A stretch of 64,000 nt of DNA from Pelagophyceae sp. CCMP2097. Its lineage: Eukaryota > Sar > Pelagophyceae. The notes under the pieces were generated by a model. The model was not told where the DNA came from. It did not search any database and saw nothing but the letters and a program-made list of their open reading frames with translations. A program made the position numbers and the translations under genes. The stretch spans positions 1 through 64,000 of the forward strand of contig MU657206.1 in NCBI GenBank assembly GCA_026770575.1, given 5' to 3'. Below, piece after piece: positions 1-37,550 of this stretch. Numbering within the stretch: position 1 is the stretch's first letter; the number at the start of each line of letters is the position of its first letter.

Positions 1-111
1 GCCCTACCAAACACACTTTGTGTGTGCGGGTAGAGTTTAGAACAACTCCGTGTTATGATCGTTGGACTGTGTTTGTGAAACAAGAACGGTCAGAACAAAG
101 TACGTGGGTTG

Positions 112-298
112 GAATTCCACCCCCAATTAGAATCGGCTTTCCCGGAAATCCCCCAATTAGAATCAACCTTTTTCTGAACATATTCTGCTCTATCGGAGCA
201 ACGGGATTCCCCTTTTCTGAACATATTATATTTCCAAGCTCCCTGATTGGTCAGAAACGATTCAAATTGGGGATTATTCTAATCGGGGGTGGAACTTC
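112..298. repeat. short foldback (MITE-like) element
   Basis: The ends are inverted copies of about 20 nt: a TCCACCCCCAATTAGAAT arm near 117-134 and its imperfect complement near 274-292. The 187-bp body has no plausible gene. A second partial copy of the arm (CCCCAATTAGAATC) lies at about 151-164. The structure resembles a non-autonomous inverted-repeat element. No target-site duplication could be assigned. Confidence 0.55.
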
Positions 299-348
299 CT
301 ATTATAGGAATCCTATAGGAGCATGTCTGACAGTGACGGTGACTCTTT

Positions 349-478
349 AGGTTCCTATACACCCAGTCTCCAGCGGACCAGAGCACTGGGGCGCGAAATC
401 CCTTTTGCTCTTTCTATCAACACGATATGGGGTGCCGTGGGTATATAGGAGTCACGACATGCTCCTATATACCCACGC
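349..478. repeat. dispersed repeat, relative of the 3.5-3.7 kb tandem units
   Basis: This stretch contains CCCAGTCTCCAGCGGACC and downstream sequence that recurs at about 3541-3615 and 3652-3720. All three copies carry the same order of blocks: a tatataccc-like start, the CCAGCGGACCAGAGCA core, then CCTTTTG and an ACACGATGGGGTGCC-like block. The copy here ends in an inverted GGTATATAGGAG / CTCCTATATACC hairpin at about 438-472. Confidence 0.55.
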
Positions 479-479
479 T

Positions 480-860
480 CTAGATCTATAGCTCCGATTT
501 CGAGAGACAGAGAGAAGACCTCGCATTTGGGGTTTATCGAGCACCCATCATGGTAGCCGGGCTAAAGTGCACCCAACTTGGATAGCCGGGTGCGCACCGC
601 GAAGCCGGACTATCCGATACCAAGCCCCATTGAATTGCGCGAGGCGCTTGCCGACTATACCTATCGAAACTAGAGTGGACCCTGTCGGCAAACGACCAGC
701 ACAATTCGATGGGACTTGGTATTGGATAGTCCGGCTTCGCGGTGCGCACCCGGCTATCCAAGATGGGTGCATTTTAGCCCGCTGTTGGCCGCGCTACGAG
801 CGATAAACCCCAAATGCGAGGTCTCCTCTCTGTCTCTCGAAATCGGTGCTAAGATCTACT
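480..860. repeat. long imperfect foldback element
   Basis: The left arm (about 483-640) and right arm (about 690-858) are reverse complements over most of their length. The shared blocks include AGATCT near the tips, the CGATTTCGAGAGACAGAG block, CCTCGCATTTGGGGTTTATCG and GGATAGCCGGGTGCGCACC. The centre is near 665. Short reading frames across it are by-products of the palindrome. A non-autonomous foldback or MITE element is the simplest explanation. Confidence 0.7.
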
Positions 861-889
861 TCGAACAACTAATGGGAATATCCTGATAC

Positions 890-1702
890 CTAGAGTAAAG
901 GTCAATTTAAGAACCTGGTCAATTTAAGAACTGACGAAAAAAATCGACAAAAGACGTTCAGTATCTCAATAAGGCATTTATAAGTCCAAATTAAAATCCA
1001 TTAAATCCCTTATTGGGATATTATCCCGCTCCAGGGGCCCGGTTCTTAATCTGACCGGCGTTTTTTAAAAGAACCGATGGTCGGTCCGGACTCTGCCAGC
1101 AGTTCCCACTTTATTTCCAAAAGTCCAAAACCAAAAAAGCATCGGCCAAAAGCAAAACCAAAAGCAAAAGCAAAAACCCAATATCCAAAATCAAAGATGT
1201 CAAAATCTCAATAAGGCAGATATTTAAAGATTTAATAAAATCCAATAATTTTTGAGGACCCGAAGGGTCCTTGCCGTTTAATCAACGTCAGTTTACGGCA
1301 AGGGCCCTTCGGGTCCTTTGATTGAAGGATTAGAGTAAAGGTCAATTTAAGAACCGGCTAAGCGAAAAAAAAACAGCAGCCCGGCGACGCCGTTGTTTGC
1401 GGTTTTGACGCTGCCAGGGGACGCGTCTGGGTCCCCTCCACCCACCCCCAAATCATCGCGTCCGCGGAGGACCTCTGTGAGAAATTTAGCATAGGCAGAG
1501 TCCGGACCGACCATCGGTTCTTAAAAAAACAACCGGTCAGATTAAGAACCGGGCCCCTGGAGCCGGATAATATCCCAATAAGGGATTTAATGGATTTTAA
1601 CTGGGCCTTTTAAATTCCTTATTGAGATATTGAACGTCGTTTGTCGATTTTTTCGTCGGTTCTTAAATTGATCAGGTTCTTAAATTGACCTTTACTCTAC
1701 CA
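890..1702. repeat. inverted-repeat element with ~200-bp arms
   Basis: The terminal motif TAGAGTAAAGGTCAATTTAA at 892-912 recurs inverted at about 1680-1700. The arms stay complementary for about 200 bp inward (left 892-1095, right 1497-1700), including GGGCCCGGTTCTTAATCTGACCGG-like and GGTCGGTCCGGACTCTGCC-like blocks. Between the arms lie AT-rich, AAAAGC-rich sequence and a hairpin at about 1255-1318 (GGACCCGAAGGGTCC type). The element interlocks with the next one: the same terminal motif occurs at 1329 and, inverted, at 3033. Confidence 0.7.
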
Positions 1703-2105
1703 GGGGCAATTTTGTCTGTCCGTCCTTCTGTCCTTCTGTCTGTCCTTCTGTCCTTCTGTCCCCGGGTAAATCCGTGAGGTTCAACCTTTGGGAAGAAAAG
1801 GGCAGCAACTCGGCCGATTCAGCGATTGGTGGTTGATGCGATTGCTAAAATTGGGAGTGGAGATCGAGCATGAGCCTCATTGGAATAATCATAGAAGAAG
1901 TTTTTGGTAACAGGTTCGAATCTGGTCGGCCGCAAAAAAAAGGAAATAAGAAATAGCTCAATAAGAAATAATAATAAAATAATAAAGATAAGGAGGATTT
2001 GAAGGTTCAGCGATTAGTTAAATAACTTTAATTATTTACGTGGGCATTGCAATGGGATTTGGCTGTATCCTTCGGGTCCTCCGTGTGCCTCCGGCGCGCT
2101 CTTGT
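1703..2105 (+). repeat. SINE-like dispersed repeat, copy 1
   Basis: The order is: a pyrimidine-rich GTCCTTCT/GTCTGTCC microsatellite (1715-1765), a CTCGGCCGA block, a region ending GGTTCGAATCTGGTCGGCC (about 1911-1931), an A-rich stretch, then a GGGTCCTCCGTGTGCCTCCG tail. The same blocks in the same order occur at 10735-11060. GGTTCGAATC resembles the B box of a tRNA-type pol III promoter, which suggests a tRNA-derived SINE. A complete tRNA cloverleaf could not be folded. Confidence 0.5.
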
Positions 2106-2414
2106 AATATTTTAAGATATATGTAAAAAAATAAAAATGATTTGATTAAATCTTAAATGTCCGCCTTATTGAGATTTTGATACGCCTTTGGTTTATGATA
2201 CATTGTATTGAATTTTTGCTTTTGCTTTTGCTTTTGCTTTTGGTCGATGCTTTTGCTTTTGCACTGGGCTAAAGTTTCTGCCTTTAAGGAATCCGTTAAG
2301 CTTCGGGTGCTCAATAAAATGAATTTATTTATGGATCGACAGCCTCGGCTAGGGAGCTTTCCGGCTTTTTTTGTTTTTTGTGCTTCTGCCGCTTTTTGCG
2401 CGACATGGACCGCT

Positions 2415-2491
2415 CCGATGCTCGCCCTGAGAGGCTTTAATAGCCAGGATGAGGGTGGTCTCGGTTTATCGCCTCTCAGGGCGAGCATCGG
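2415..2491. repeat. perfect 21-bp hairpin
   Basis: CCGATGCTCGCCCTGAGAGG near 2416 is perfectly repeated in inverse orientation near 2470-2490, separated by about 34 nt. It lies inside the composite element and is not followed by a T run. Confidence 0.6.
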
Positions 2492-3030
2492 TGCCACAGA
2501 AGCCGAGCTCTGAAAGGCTTTAAAAGCGCAGACTCCCGCGGAGAGTCTCTCGCGACTCAGGGGCGCGCGCACCAAACTTTTTGCTGCGGCGCGTCGAGCC
2601 CGAGGTGGCCCATGAGCGCGCGCAGTAGCGCCTCGGCCGAGCGCCCACAGCGCCCGCCAGGCGCGCCAAAGGGAATTTCAGGGGCAAACTGCCTTTAAGG
2701 CGGGAAATCTGTCTCCCTTTAGACCAGTGTTGGACTTCCGGAAATAAAGTGGGAACTGCTGTATGCTAAATTTCTCACAGAGGTCCTCCGCGGACGCCAC
2801 GATTTGGGGGTGAGAAAACCACTTGATCCAAGAGGCAGCCGAGACTGAACATCAAGGGGCGGCTGTTGACATGAATAAAAACACCGTCTGTCACTGGCGT
2901 TTGCCGCGATTGGGGGTGGGTGGAGGGGACCCAGACGCGTCCCCTGGCAGCGTCAAAACCGCAAACAACGGCGCCGCCGGGCCGCTGATTTTTTTTCGCT
3001 TAGCCGGTTCTTAAATTGACCTTTACTCTA

Positions 3031-3842
3031 CAGCACTTTCCAGCTAAAAAGAATCATGCCAAGTAAATACCAAAGTAAGTATCTGTCAAAGTAAGTATCA
3101 AGTAAAGTATTGTCTCGCAGCGCCCGCGCGCCCCCCCGAAGTCAGGAGTGGCGCATTCGACGCGCCGCGCCGCGGGCAATACTTTGTACCAAAGGTTTAC
3201 CAACGCTGCGCGTGTGCGCCGCCCGGAGTGTGAGATACAGAAAATTTTAATGGGAAGAGAAAAAAGTATTAAATACTTTACTTAAAAGTTTCCGATATTT
3301 TTTCCCAGGCTGTTTCGCACACTCCGGGCGGCGCACACGCGCAGCGTTGGTAAACCTTTGGTACAACGTGTTGCCCGCGACACGGCGCGTCGAATGCGCC
3401 ACTCCCGACTTCGGGGGAGCGCGCGGGCGCTGCGAAACAATACTTTACTTGATACTTACTTTGGCAGATACTTACTTTGGTATTTACTTGGCATGATTCT
3501 TTTTACGTGGGTATATAGGAGCATGTCGTGACTCTTTATATACCCAGTCTCCAGCGGACCAGAGCACTGGGACGCGATATCCATTTTGATCTTCCTATCA
3601 ACACGATGGGGTGCCGTGGGAATATAGGAGCATGTCGTGACTCTTAATATACCCAGTCTCCAGCGGACCAGAGCAATGGGACGCGATATCCCTTTTGCTC
3701 TTCCCGTTGCGGTATATATACCGGGCCCCACAATCACCTCCAAGGATAATGATCCGGTGAATCCCCTTTTGCCCCCAGCGGGTCATTACGCTTCCTATCA
3801 ACACGATAGGAGATATCTCCGTTTTAGCTGGAAAGTGCTGTA
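3031..3842. repeat. nested element: outer TIR, inner foldback, tandem units
   Basis: The outer terminal repeat CAGCACTTTCCAGCTAAAA (3032-3050) is inverted at about 3822-3841. Inside is an almost perfect foldback (about 3047-3505). Its arms of about 190 bp share AAGAATCATGCCAAGTAAAT, the TACCAAAGTAAGTATC blocks and a GGTTTACCAACGCTGCGCG block, and are separated by about 75 bp of AT-rich spacer. After it come two tandem units of about 110 bp (3507-3617 and 3618-3720) related to 349-478. No coding capacity is seen. Confidence 0.7.
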
Positions 3843-4215
3843 AGCTTCCGTGCATTTCTTTTTTCATAGAACAAGTATAGGAACTCCTAAGAGACAGAGT
3901 GCACGTGCGTTATCAAGCGGAGCTAAACAGAGAGGGCTGCGCGCGGCACCGCGGCGGTCGCGAGGAATAGCGCGCCTCGGCCGCACGAGGTGCCCGGCGC
4001 CCACAGCGGTCCCGAAAAGTGCGAAAATTGACCTCGCACATTTCAAAGTTCCGCTTCGAACTCGCGGCCTACGACGCGCTCTAGACGAGCGCTCGAGCCG
4101 CGCCCTCACACAAGTTGCCGCGTCTCCGCCGCGCTTCCGAAGTCGGCGCGTTGCTCGCGTGAGCGGGGTCCGCGCGAGGCTGGATTCCATCCGCGACGCG
4201 GCGCGCAAGGGCCGC

Positions 4216-33377: not shown

Positions 33378-34550
33378 ATGGCGCCCGCGTTTCCCGCGGC
33401 GCCGTCGGGCCCGAAGGGCGGCGCGGGCGCGCCGCGCTGGCGCCTCTACCACCGGCGCCGCGACGAGCCGCAGCGGAGCCCCGGCCGGCCCGACGCCAGG
33501 CCCGCCGCCGATGCGCGCGGCCTGCAGAAGCACCTCGACTTTACGCGCGCCGGTCTCGCCACGCCGCCGCCGGGCTCGCGCGGCGAGGCGCGGGGCCGCG
33601 CGCCCGCCGCGCGGCGCGCCCAGGGCGGCCTCCGCGAGCTGAGCACGAGCTCCAAGTCGCGCGGCCGCCCGCGGTTCACGCGGTCCAGCCTCTCCGGCGT
33701 CGGGAGCAGCGCGTCGAGCGTGCGTTCTTCGAGCGCGTCCTCGCTGCGGTCGGCGGGGTCGACGGCGTCGATGCGGTCCGCGCGGTCCGGCGGTCTTTCG
33801 GCGTTCCAGGCGCGCGACTTTTCCCGCAACCTGACGCGGCACCGCTCCCGCCTCCGAATCATGGCGCCGAGGATGCGCGTCGTCGCGCCGCTGCGGCCCA
33901 AGCACCTCCAGAACAACCCGCGGCGCGCGTCCGCGCTGCAAGAGCAACGCACGGCGCTGCGCCGCGAGAACAAGCTGCATCACCACAGGCTGCACCGCAT
34001 CAGCCAGCTGCCCTCGCAGCTCGCACACCGCCCGCCGCACGACGCCGGCACGCCGCGCGCCGCCAGCGAGCCGCTGCGCAACAACTCGTCGGAGGGCGCA
34101 TCGTTCCAGCGCGGCCGGAAGGCCAGCGGCCAGCTCCGGGGCGCGACGGGTTCGTCTCCGCGGCCGCCGCACATGCGCGGCGCGCCCTTCGTGACCAAAA
34201 TGTGCGCCGCGCCCTTCGTGACCACGTCGCATCCGACGGAATACTACGACATCAAGCTGCCGCGCATCAACGCGCTGCCGTCGGACGCCTTGACTGCACG
34301 GTCGCTGAGGCGCGACGCGGACTCCACGTCCGGCGCGATGCGGGGCATCTACCAAAAGGGCCACCCGACGCTCGTCGCCAAGCGGCGCCGCCTCGCAGTC
34401 GCAGTCGCGCCCCACTCGCAGTCGCAGGACGCGCGCGGCCTGCCGGACATGGAGTCCGTGGCCGCGCTCTACGCCCGAATCGCCGTCGCAAACGCAAACG
34501 CGAACGCCGGCTCCGCAGACGCGCTCCGGCCGCCCGCCGTCGAAATCTAA
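33378..34550 (+). CDS. basic, disordered protein of unknown function
   Basis: An uninterrupted 390-residue frame from ATG 33378. It is rich in Arg, Ser and Pro, with a serine cluster (SSLSGVGSSASSVRSSSASS), a possible helix (LQEQRTALRRENKLHHHRLH) and a tandem pair (RGAPFVTKM / CAAPFVTTS). The Tyr-bearing segment SHPTEYYDIKLPRI and the C-terminal LPDMESVAALYARIAVANAN suggest a real protein. No family recognised. An equally long open frame on the opposite strand is judged a GC-driven shadow. Confidence 0.5.
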   Translation: MAPAFPAAPSGPKGGAGAPRWRLYHRRRDEPQRSPGRPDARPAADARGLQKHLDFTRAGLATPPPGSRGEARGRAPAARRAQGGLRELSTSSKSRGRPRFTRSSLSGVGSSASSVRSSSASSLRSAGSTASMRSARSGGLSAFQARDFSRNLTRHRSRLRIMAPRMRVVAPLRPKHLQNNPRRASALQEQRTALRRENKLHHHRLHRISQLPSQLAHRPPHDAGTPRAASEPLRNNSSEGASFQRGRKASGQLRGATGSSPRPPHMRGAPFVTKMCAAPFVTTSHPTEYYDIKLPRINALPSDALTARSLRRDADSTSGAMRGIYQKGHPTLVAKRRRLAVAVAPHSQSQDARGLPDMESVAALYARIAVANANANAGSADALRPPAVEI

Positions 34551-34644
34551 ACGCCGCCAAAGTCGTCTTCGGACAAGGCGACGACGCCCGGAACACGGTG
34601 GGGTGCTGTTGTTTACTTCGTCGGTGTCTGGGCCCTTTGAGTTT

Positions 34645-34712
34645 TGTATGGGGTGTCAGGCGTCGGTTGCGTCTTTGGGAGCAAAGGCCGCCGTCATATC
34701 GTACATGCTCGA
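34645..34712 (-). promoter_or_regulatory. candidate SECIS element of the selenoprotein U mRNA
   Basis: It lies in the 3' UTR, with its core 56 nt after the stop codon. Minus-strand positions 34697-34655 can fold with ATGAC on the 5' side and TGAC on the 3' side, giving the tandem G.A quartet. Next is a helix of about 12 positions (GGCGGCCTTTGC against GCAACCGACGCC, three mismatches) and a 10-nt apical loop, TCCCAAAGAC, that contains the expected unpaired AAA. Helix I below the quartet is weak, and the AA lies a little further from the quartet than usual. A competing hairpin, CTTTG/CAAAG, exists. Confidence 0.5.
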
Positions 34713-34752
34713 AGAGTTGGAGACGCCGTCTGAAGTCGACGGTCGAGGCGCC

Positions 34753-35725
34753 CTAGCGACGCTCGAGCTCGTCGAGCGCCAGCTCGATGGCCTCGAGCGG
34801 CGCCGGCTCGCCCGTCGTCTCCGCGTACTCGTAGACGACGTCGCCCTGCGGCGAGACGACGAGGACGCCGCCGAGGAGGTTGCCCTCGCCGATCATGTTG
34901 CCTTCGATGCTCTTGGCCTACGCACCTCGTCGAGTCCGATGGTCGCTCCTCCAACCCGATAGCCCAATGCTCTGCACCGGACATGAACAAACGCCCACGC
35001 ACCGTCATGCGCGCGCCGATGGCCTTGATGGTTCGCCAGGCCTTGAACGGGTTGGCGAGGCTGCGGAGCAGAAGGCCCGGCGTGATGAGCTTGCGGCCGC
35101 CGAAATACGCGTAAAACGCCAGCTCCGCGTCGAGGTAGAGTTCGGCGCCGCCGAGGTAGTCGCGCTGGAAGACTTGGACGCCGAGGACGGTGTCGTCGGC
35201 CGCCTGCTTCGTCGGCGCGACCTCCTTGATGACGCCGACGAGGGGCACGTTGGAGCCGCGGATCTTCAAGAGTTCCGCGAGCCCGCGCGCCTCCTCGCGG
35301 CACAGGACTCATCCGGGCCGGCGCACGACAAAGACGACGGCGCCGCGCGGCGACCACAGCGCCGCCGCCTTGACGGCCGCGCCGACGACGGCGCCGCCGG
35401 AGACGGGCTTGAGCGCCACGTCCCCGAGCGCCGACGCAGCCAGGCGGACCTTGGGCGCAGACGAAGAAAAACGCTTCGCGACCAGGCCCAGCGCCGCGCC
35501 TAGGGTCAGCCCCTCAGAGACGGCAGTGTCGCCGCCGGCGCGGGAAACTGGGCAATGCCGGCCCTCCAATGCGCCGGATCGAGCACAGCGTCGCAAAAAG
35601 GCGAGGCGCTTCCTCACCGGCGAAAGCAGTCCGGAAGAGCATGCGTCCGAGCATGGCAAACTCGCGTCGCGACGTGACGACTCCGAGTCTCGTCCGAGTC
35701 GTCCGAAAAAAAGTCGCTCTCTCAT
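34753..35725 (-). CDS. SELENOU: selenoprotein U (PRXL2/FAM213 family), UGA-encoded Sec
   Basis: Peroxiredoxin-like thioredoxin-fold protein. The family redox motif RRPGCxxCREEA appears here as RRPG-UGA-VLCREEARGLAELL, with the UGA at 35311-35309 exactly at the first Cys, giving a UxxC site. Homology continues on both sides without a frame change: GAVVFVV before, and NVPLVGVIKE, GGAELYLDAELAFYAYFGG and NPFKAWRTIKAIGARMT after. Then an 85-nt intron (35002-34918, donor GTGCGT) leads to AKSIEGNMIGEGNLLGGVLV and the end ALDELERR at 34753. A SECIS-like hairpin follows. The N-terminus is uncertain: ATG 35725 is used because 35827 overlaps the divergent gene, and an intron ending CCCTAG near 35500 is possible. 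Confidence 0.82.
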
Positions 35726-35825
35726 ATCGCTAAACCCGCCGCCGTTGGTTTCTTTATTCTTGGCGTCGGAGCAGGCCCCCCGCGTGCGCAGGGCGCCTCC
35801 ACGTCGTCCTTCGCAGTCTCTTAGC

Positions 35826-37550
35826 ATGGCGCGGCCGCGGCACACGATGGACACGGCGGCGATGATCGAGATGTTGATGGCGCAGGAGCCCGCGGCCGGC
35901 GGCGGCGGCGACGAGGGGCACACGTGCACCGTCGACCTCGAAAAGTTCCAGAAGGTCTTCGGGGCGCAGGAGCCCGGCTCGTCGGAGCGCAAAAAGCGGC
36001 GCGAGACGGCTGACCCGTCGAAGCTCCGCGAACTCCTCGAGCAATGCGTCATCGACGACGCCGACGAAGAGGGCGCCGACCGCGAGGTGCGCGCGCGCGG
36101 GGCGGCGGCGGGGCGCCCGCTCGCCGCGGACGGCTCCCAAAGGACCGTCGACCGCGCAGGCGACGGAGGAGAACGCAGACGAGCGAGTGCCGGCTCGGAA
36201 TTCGCAGTTCCGACGGCGCATGACGTGCGACCCGCGGCTCCTCAAACAACTCGTGAGCCACGGCCGATTTGGGCGTCGTCGTCCGTCGGGGCATGCCTCG
36301 CGGTGCCGTCGGCGCGTCTCCGAGGACGGGGTCCCATGTTCGAAGCACGTTTTGAAACAGGTCCTCGACGGCGAGGCGCCGCGCGGCCTGTCGCGGCTGA
36401 GCGAGGGGTCGAGCGAGCCCTACGCGCTGCAGGAGGACTTGGACACGACGACGGACAGCGACGGCGGCCCGGCCGGCGCGCTCGTGGACGCGGCCTGCGA
36501 CGAACCACTGCCCGCAGAGGCACCGGCCGCGTCGAGCGTCGATGAGGCGGCTGCGCCTCTGGCGGGGCCAGCCGCCGAGGACCACGGCGAAGAGGACGAC
36601 GAGTTTGACGACGAAATCGACAACGACGTGGCGTACAACCGACGCGGATCGGTGCGTTTTCGCTCGCGTTTCCCAACTTCGACGCCGCCGCGTCAACTCG
36701 ACCGCAGGTGGCGTGGACGTTCGACGAGCAGCGCGCCACGCTCCAGGTCCGTCTTCCGTGAATGATGGCCGCGACTCTGGAGCGTCGTTTCCCGCGGTCC
36801 CCGGCGACGCCGGAAATTGACGCGATCCGCCCAGAGTGACGCCCTCCCCGCAGGAGCTGCGGCGCCAGCTGCGCATCGAGAAGGAGCTTGCGACGGATGC
36901 GGAGTACGAGCGCGACGAGCTGGCCAAAGAGGCCAGGGCGCTGCGGTCGGAGATGTCGGCGCGCGCGGACCTCCTCGCAGCGCTCGAGACGCAGCGCGAC
37001 GCGGCCAACGCGCGCGCCGCCGTCGCCGAGCAGCGCGCGGTGCGCGCCGACGCCGACGCAGCGCGCGCGCAGCTCCTCAAGCGCGCGTCGGACGCGGCCG
37101 CCGACGCGGGCGCGGCGGACGCGCGCCACGAGGTCGCGCTGATGCGCAGCGCCACCGCCGACGGGGGCCACCGCACGGCGCACGCCGAGGCGCTGCTGCG
37201 CGCCGCCGAGCGCCGCACCGACAGCGCCGACGAGGCCAACGCCGACCTCCGCCAGCAGGTCGCCGCCCTCGAGGCGCGCGTCAAGGCCCTCGACAAGGTC
37301 AAGATCACAAAGAGCTTTGCGCAAAAGGTCCACCAGACCGTCGAGGAGCGCGACCACCTCGCGGTGAGTGCACCCCGCCGCCGTTTCAAGGCCTTTGACG
37401 GGCCGACGTCCGCTCCCCGCAACACGAAAATCGTAGGCCGAGCTCGCGCAGATGCGCGCCAAGGAGAACAACGGCGTCTCGCCGCTCCCCTTCACGACGT
37501 CGGACCGGACCTTTACGGCCAAGGACGCGAACGAATGCCGCCAGTCTTGA
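35826..37550 (+). CDS. coiled-coil protein of unknown function
   Basis: Start MARPRHTMDTAAMIEMLMAQ, then CTVDLEKFQKVFGA and SKLRELLEQCVIDDADEEGA. After introns come MTCDPRLLKQLVSHGRFG, an acidic segment DDEFDDEIDNDVAYNRRG, and a long heptad region (PQELRRQLRIEKELATDAEY ... AEALLRAAERRTDSADEANA, DLRQQVAALEARVKALDKVK). A final exon after about 37436 reads AELAQMRAKENNGVSPLPFT ... ECRQS and stops at 37550. It starts about 100 bp from the selenoprotein U start, in divergent orientation. A structural or cytoskeletal role is likely from composition only. Confidence 0.55.

Follow-up and report, generated by a model that had tools for sequence, protein, structure and literature searches.

A probable selenocysteine codon in a SelU/PRXL2-family gene of an alga related to pelagophytes

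Here we describe a SelU/PRXL2-like gene on the minus strand of a 64,000-nt stretch of DNA (the window), which forms the start of contig C43 in a 66.18-Mb assembly; genome searches were run on that assembly. The gene spans 35725..34753 in two exons, with exon 1 (35003..35725) separated from exon 2 (34753..34917) by an 85-nt GT-AG intron (34918..35002). After removal of the intron, 295 codons lead from an ATG at 35725 to a TAG at 34755..34753, and the sole internal stop among them is a single in-frame TGA at 35311..35309 ('tca' at 35309..35311 on the plus strand). This codon lies inside VVFVVRRPG-TGA-VLCREEA, preceded by GTG CGC CGG CCC GGA and followed by GTC CTG TGC CGC GAG GAG GCG. We propose it as a selenocysteine (Sec) at residue 139, the first position of the UxxC motif in RRPG-U-VLC-REEA; the second Cys of the motif is encoded by a TGC at 35300..35302. 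GC3 around the TGA is 88% in the 60 codons upstream and 94% in the 156 codons downstream. ATG 35725 is a tentative start codon: neither the Pfam match nor the homology query included residues 1 to ~100, recognisable homology beginning at about residue 100, and upstream the frame does not close before 36100 at the earliest (a second ATG lies at 36052).

The GC content of the window is mostly 60-73% in 2-kb blocks; for comparison, a GC of 70.5% is reported for Aureococcus strain CCMP1851 (PMC11237714). The first part of the window (1-4000) has a GC content of 46-51%, below all other 2-kb blocks (at least 59%), and no ORF of 150 aa begins before position 3850.

With C written for the TGA, the spliced product matches the AhpC-TSA_2 family PF13911 (E 8.8e-10, 39.4 bits), passing the family cut-off of 27, as well as a solved prostamide/prostaglandin F synthase structure, 9us9 (E 1.1e-12), which has Cys at the TGA site. 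This sequence match is the observation that bears on the thioredoxin-like fold expected of the family. Exon 2 alone reaches 22.7 bits against PF13911, under the cut-off, and exon 1 alone has no Pfam match at E 0.001; the match of the spliced product to the NCBIfam model SelL_rel_redox is weak (E 0.0025) and far below the cut-off of that model. A search of 5.77 billion proteins, with a query that bore C at the site and left out the N-terminal ~100 residues, returned 31 homologues at E <= 0.001 (best 3.6e-85). Given the PF13911 match and these 31 homologues, the continuity of the frame across the TGA is more than chance. The TGA site is covered in frame by 12 of the homologues, and all 12 have Cys there (RRPGCVLCRE). 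In an alignment of 15 rows (14 homologues plus the query), the redox motif RRPG(C/U)xxCR is present as RRPG-TGA-VLCREEA and aligns with the Cys homologues, and the VVFVVRRPG that precedes the UGA is conserved as it is in them. The best homologue with an organism name is a PRXL2 protein of Aureoumbra lagunensis at 54% identity. Both organisms named among the relatives, Aureoumbra and Aureococcus (the latter from a PurN-PurM comparison given below), are pelagophytes.

The remaining homologues are informative in a different way. While one (P0028) comes in from another frame, 18 of the 31 begin after the TGA site, and five of these (P0003, P0006, P0019, P0021 and P0029) start at (M)LCREE, immediately past it; a stop codon at this position in those sequences as well would produce such a pattern. 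Furthermore, an environmental protein, P0002, is 100% identical to the predicted product over 143 residues that cross the splice junction, which supports the 85-nt intron. P0002 begins at a TTG, the first ATG/GTG/TTG downstream of the UGA; a gene caller would be expected to place the start there if that sequence also carried the UGA, and a contig cut at its 5' end could look alike.

Taken together, these observations bear out most of what the initial annotation of this locus had read from its letters, namely a gene spanning 34753-35725 with an 85-nt intron (GT-AG at 35002..34918, in an open frame whose junction P0002 spans), membership in the PRXL2/SelU family (PF13911, 9us9 and the homologue alignment) and a UGA at 35309..35311 in frame at the redox Cys of RRPG(C/U)xxCREEA, where the exact codon was found and Cys occupies the site in 12/12 in-frame homologues. 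The alignment with SelU-family proteins that it had called for places Cys homologues against both the motif and the residues before the UGA. Removal of the UGA by splicing, which it had raised against its own reading, is contradicted by P0002, an identical, spliced sequence that starts at the first possible start codon past the TGA.

In-frame TGA codons at redox positions are not isolated to the gene in the window. PF13911 matches at four places in the genome, and in three of these (the gene of the window, L004 and L005) the redox residue is a TGA; the fourth (L006) is under the family cut-off and carries no recognisable motif. The second SelU-like gene, L005 (G000:C23:267734-268126), has a divergent UxxC motif in RHYG-TGA-VFCWERA, while the third, L004 (G000:C74:157947-158324), carries RRPG-TGA directly before an apparent intron, such that its UxxC appears to be split between exons and would be restored by a GT...AG splice. 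A second redox family displays the same feature: the six PF00255 matches in the genome fall in four GPx genes, and all four have TGA in the context NVAS(Q/A/E)-TGA-G, a position (NVASxUG) that we take to be the Sec site of the GPx family. The TGA-bearing redox genes seen in the genome number seven (three PF13911 and four GPx). Two of the GPx genes form a tandem pair (G000:C111:58327-60409, L042-L045) with TGA at the Sec site in both copies, and the first part of the 3' region is common to both.

Two components of the Sec machinery are encoded in the genome: SepSecS (PF05889, E 7e-45), whose top homologue among the best 120 of 578 matches is 57% identical, and eEFSec (PF21131 domain, E 9.8e-18). 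A gene for tRNA-Sec was sought in several ways. The Rfam model RF01852 had no match at E 0.001 or at E <= 10 among the 53 of 5768 candidates scored, three sequence patterns run on the genome gave no recognisable gene, and ARAGORN found none in 11 of 30 loci taken from 49 pattern matches, nor any tRNA in the 64-kb window. Similarly, the selenophosphate synthetase (SPS) model TIGR00476 had 0 matches in the genome. The search for Sec machinery that the initial annotation had proposed thus came out in part: SepSecS and eEFSec are present, and tRNA-Sec and SPS were not found, in searches that have blind spots. With TGA at the redox sites of seven genes, we tentatively read the missing tRNA-Sec and SPS as gaps of search or assembly.

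Two by-products of these searches can be recorded here. The only PF00586 match in the genome, L046, was considered as a selenophosphate synthetase and rejected, as it is a PurN-PurM protein; among the 120 matches listed for it are the Aureococcus anophagefferens proteins P0167 and P0177, at 50% and 59% identity. With these values, and with the top SepSecS match at 57%, the alga is unlikely to be Aureococcus anophagefferens, though probably pelagophyte-like; a search of the assembly for chloroplast rbcL gave no match. In addition, a repeat of ~46 bases (TTCAAATCCAGATCAGGTTCGAAATGCCGCCGGTGGGGTTCGAACC and variants), found on many contigs, accounts by reading for 39 of the 49 matches of one tRNA-Sec pattern; one end of the repeat resembles a tRNA T-arm, and it is perhaps a tRNA-derived repeat.

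The 3' region of the gene offers a candidate SECIS element. Our scan rule asked for a quartet [AG]TGA...GA, a closed inner hairpin, unpaired AA or CC 8-14 nt in and a lower duplex, and it matched at one ATGA only, the better match being ATGAC-GGCGGCCTTTGCTCCCAAAGACGCAACCGACGCC-TGA at 34697..34656 on the minus strand, which starts 55 nt after the TAG. This core comprises the ATGA quartet at 34697, a GGCG/CGCC helix, an apical loop with CCC and a 3' TGA at 34658..34656. Together with a lower helix (CTTCGAG/CTCAAAG plus TGTA/TACA), the whole element would extend over approximately 34635..34714 in MFE folds, with other cuts of the sequence folding otherwise, and it has a 4x4 internal loop and CC in place of AA. 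The probability of such a hairpin by chance is ~3%, as an equal or better score was obtained for 8 of 300 dinucleotide shuffles and for 40 of 1140 segments of 224 nt from the window; taken alone, the hairpin is weak. Rfam gave 0 matches on the whole window at gathering scores and, at E <= 10 over 34100-36000, eight weak matches with no SECIS or tRNA among them.

Comparison with the other TGA-bearing genes places this element in a wider, if uneven, picture. When the scan was applied to the 224-nt 3' regions of six Sec genes, three gave a match (the gene of the window, L005 and the GPx gene L041); for L005 and L041, the score was reached by 0 of 300 shuffles each, and the element of the gene in the window is the weakest of the three. 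In all three, which belong to two families, CC begins 14 nt after the ATGA, and the loop TCCCAAAGA is common to the gene of the window and L005. No SECIS-like element was detected by the scan in the 224-nt 3' regions of L004, the GPx gene L040 or the upstream tandem GPx copy. Folds of L004 and of the tandem GPx contain hairpins between ATGA and GA that lie outside the scan rule and were chosen by eye, and the 3' fold of L040 is unconvincing as a SECIS. The distances from stop codon to ATGA are 46 nt (L040 and L005), 47 nt (L004), 49 nt (L041), 55 nt (the gene of the window) and 77 nt (tandem GPx). As a measure of background, better-scoring scan matches occur elsewhere, within the coding parts of L004 and L040 and at a distant downstream position in L042, and of 316 stretches of 800 nt from the window, 68 carry some scan match. 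Behind the downstream tandem GPx copy (L042), 327 nt after its stop, lies an AA-type candidate (ATGA, 11 nt, AAA), which is equalled in score by 29 of the 316 800-nt stretches of the window. Given this canonical-looking AAA candidate, the CC-type layout, if real, would not be the sole form in the genome.

CC-type elements have precedent. In their search, Lobanov et al. (2007) allowed either AA or CC (NTGA..AA/CC..GA) at 10-13 nt from the quartet and rejected candidates with more than two consecutive unpaired bases (PMC2375036), and CC is reported in the SECIS of mammalian SelM and SelO (PMC3316567). The elements seen here share the NTGA...CC...GA motif with the CC-type eukaryotic SECIS given in those texts (PMC2375036; PMC3316567), and differ in that CC stands at 14 nt, just outside the 10-13 nt range stated in PMC2375036. 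It is tempting to combine these features into a fuller picture, in which a CC(C) SECIS at 14 nt is common to one GPx and a pair of SelU-like genes, coexists with an AA-type form, and accompanies three Sec-type PF13911 paralogues, one with the divergent RHYG-U-VFCWERA; tRNA-Sec and SPS, for which the standard models had no match, might be divergent as well. We regard this composite as rather doubtful. Were the CC-type layout real, SECIS searches that require AA or a spacing of 10-13 nt would miss genes here.

How else might the TGA at 35311..35309 be explained? One base change in a Cys codon (TGC/TGT), through pseudogene decay or a sequencing error, would give TGA in a family whose in-frame members have Cys, and the weakness of the SECIS-like element in this gene fits such a reading. 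Nonetheless, the frame runs for 295 codons with neither another stop nor a frameshift and with high GC3 on both sides, P0002 provides an independent, identical protein sequence that starts just past the TGA, and TGA recurs at the equivalent residue of two paralogues as well as at the Sec position in four GPx genes, which makes decay or error very improbable. The UGA could instead be a real stop, yielding either a short N-terminal product or a protein that starts after the UGA and lacks the first redox residue. The 18 of 31 homologous records that begin after the site, five of them right behind it, are what this explanation would draw on; yet the VVFVVRRPG preceding the UGA is kept as in the Cys homologues, and no residue but Cys is present at the site in the 12 in-frame homologues, so that termination here is even harder to credit than decay or error.

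A last explanation is a change of the code itself, with TGA a sense codon (e.g. for Cys or Trp) throughout the nuclear genome. Although in-frame TGA does occur in several genes, in those examined it sits where redox families are known to carry Sec, and the Cys within the same UxxC motif is encoded by TGC. Moreover, SepSecS and eEFSec are present, and the SepSecS frame itself terminates with TGA. The terminal stops of the three ordinary genes checked (TGA in SepSecS, TAA in eEFSec and TAG in PurN-PurM) indicate that TGA is apparently not a general sense codon, and we consider a reassigned code so improbable as to be negligible.

We therefore favor the reading in which UGA 35311..35309 very probably encodes selenocysteine via the usual eukaryotic SECIS route in a SelU protein. 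The initial annotation had put forward Sec at this codon from the motif, and the proposal now draws support from Cys in 12/12 homologues, TGA at the redox residue in three of four PF13911 places, TGA in the GPx genes alongside SepSecS and eEFSec, and the weak SECIS-like hairpin. In a pelagophyte-related alga, the gene would then code for a PRXL2/SelU (SELENOU) protein that contains Sec, the UGA being decoded under the direction of a SECIS ~55 nt past the TAG. Insertion of Sec would presumably proceed through eEFSec and a Sec-tRNA made by SepSecS. In the protein, Sec could pair with the Cys three residues on as a selenenylsulfide, and the UxxC so formed may serve a thiol/peroxide reductase function; a UxxC redox enzyme is what membership in the family suggests.

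SelU selenoproteins are well represented among algae. SELENOU is one of the four Sec proteins with the widest distribution in algae, and 82 selenoprotein genes are predicted for A. anophagefferens (PMC7539508); Sec-bearing SelU has been described for Ostreococcus and, twice, for Thalassiosira (PMC2375036), and Aureococcus Sel U, one of the selenoproteins of that alga, is reported to be overexpressed late in virus infection (PMC5917014). As SelU selenoproteins are on record for Aureococcus, Thalassiosira and Ostreococcus, the gene described here adds a member to an established family, selenoprotein U, and is not new in kind. It shares with SelU/SELENOU (PRXL2A/FAM213A; PF13911) the family, the RRPG(C/U)xxCREEA motif, the Sec/Cys residue and a 3' SECIS-like element, and differs from known SelU in its species, its unmatched N-terminal ~100 residues and the CC in the apical loop of the SECIS-like element. 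Our searches of the open-licence literature brought up no report of this very gene, and a search for relatives of the locus in viral contigs gave eight stretches that fit the pattern and 0 relatives.

Beyond the gene itself, the CC-type SECIS layout, together with the tRNA-Sec and SPS that escaped detection, are points of some interest. Ordinary gene annotation would truncate this gene at the UGA; with the UGA read as Sec, one more relative of the selenium-rich Aureococcus would join the algae with SelU selenoproteins.
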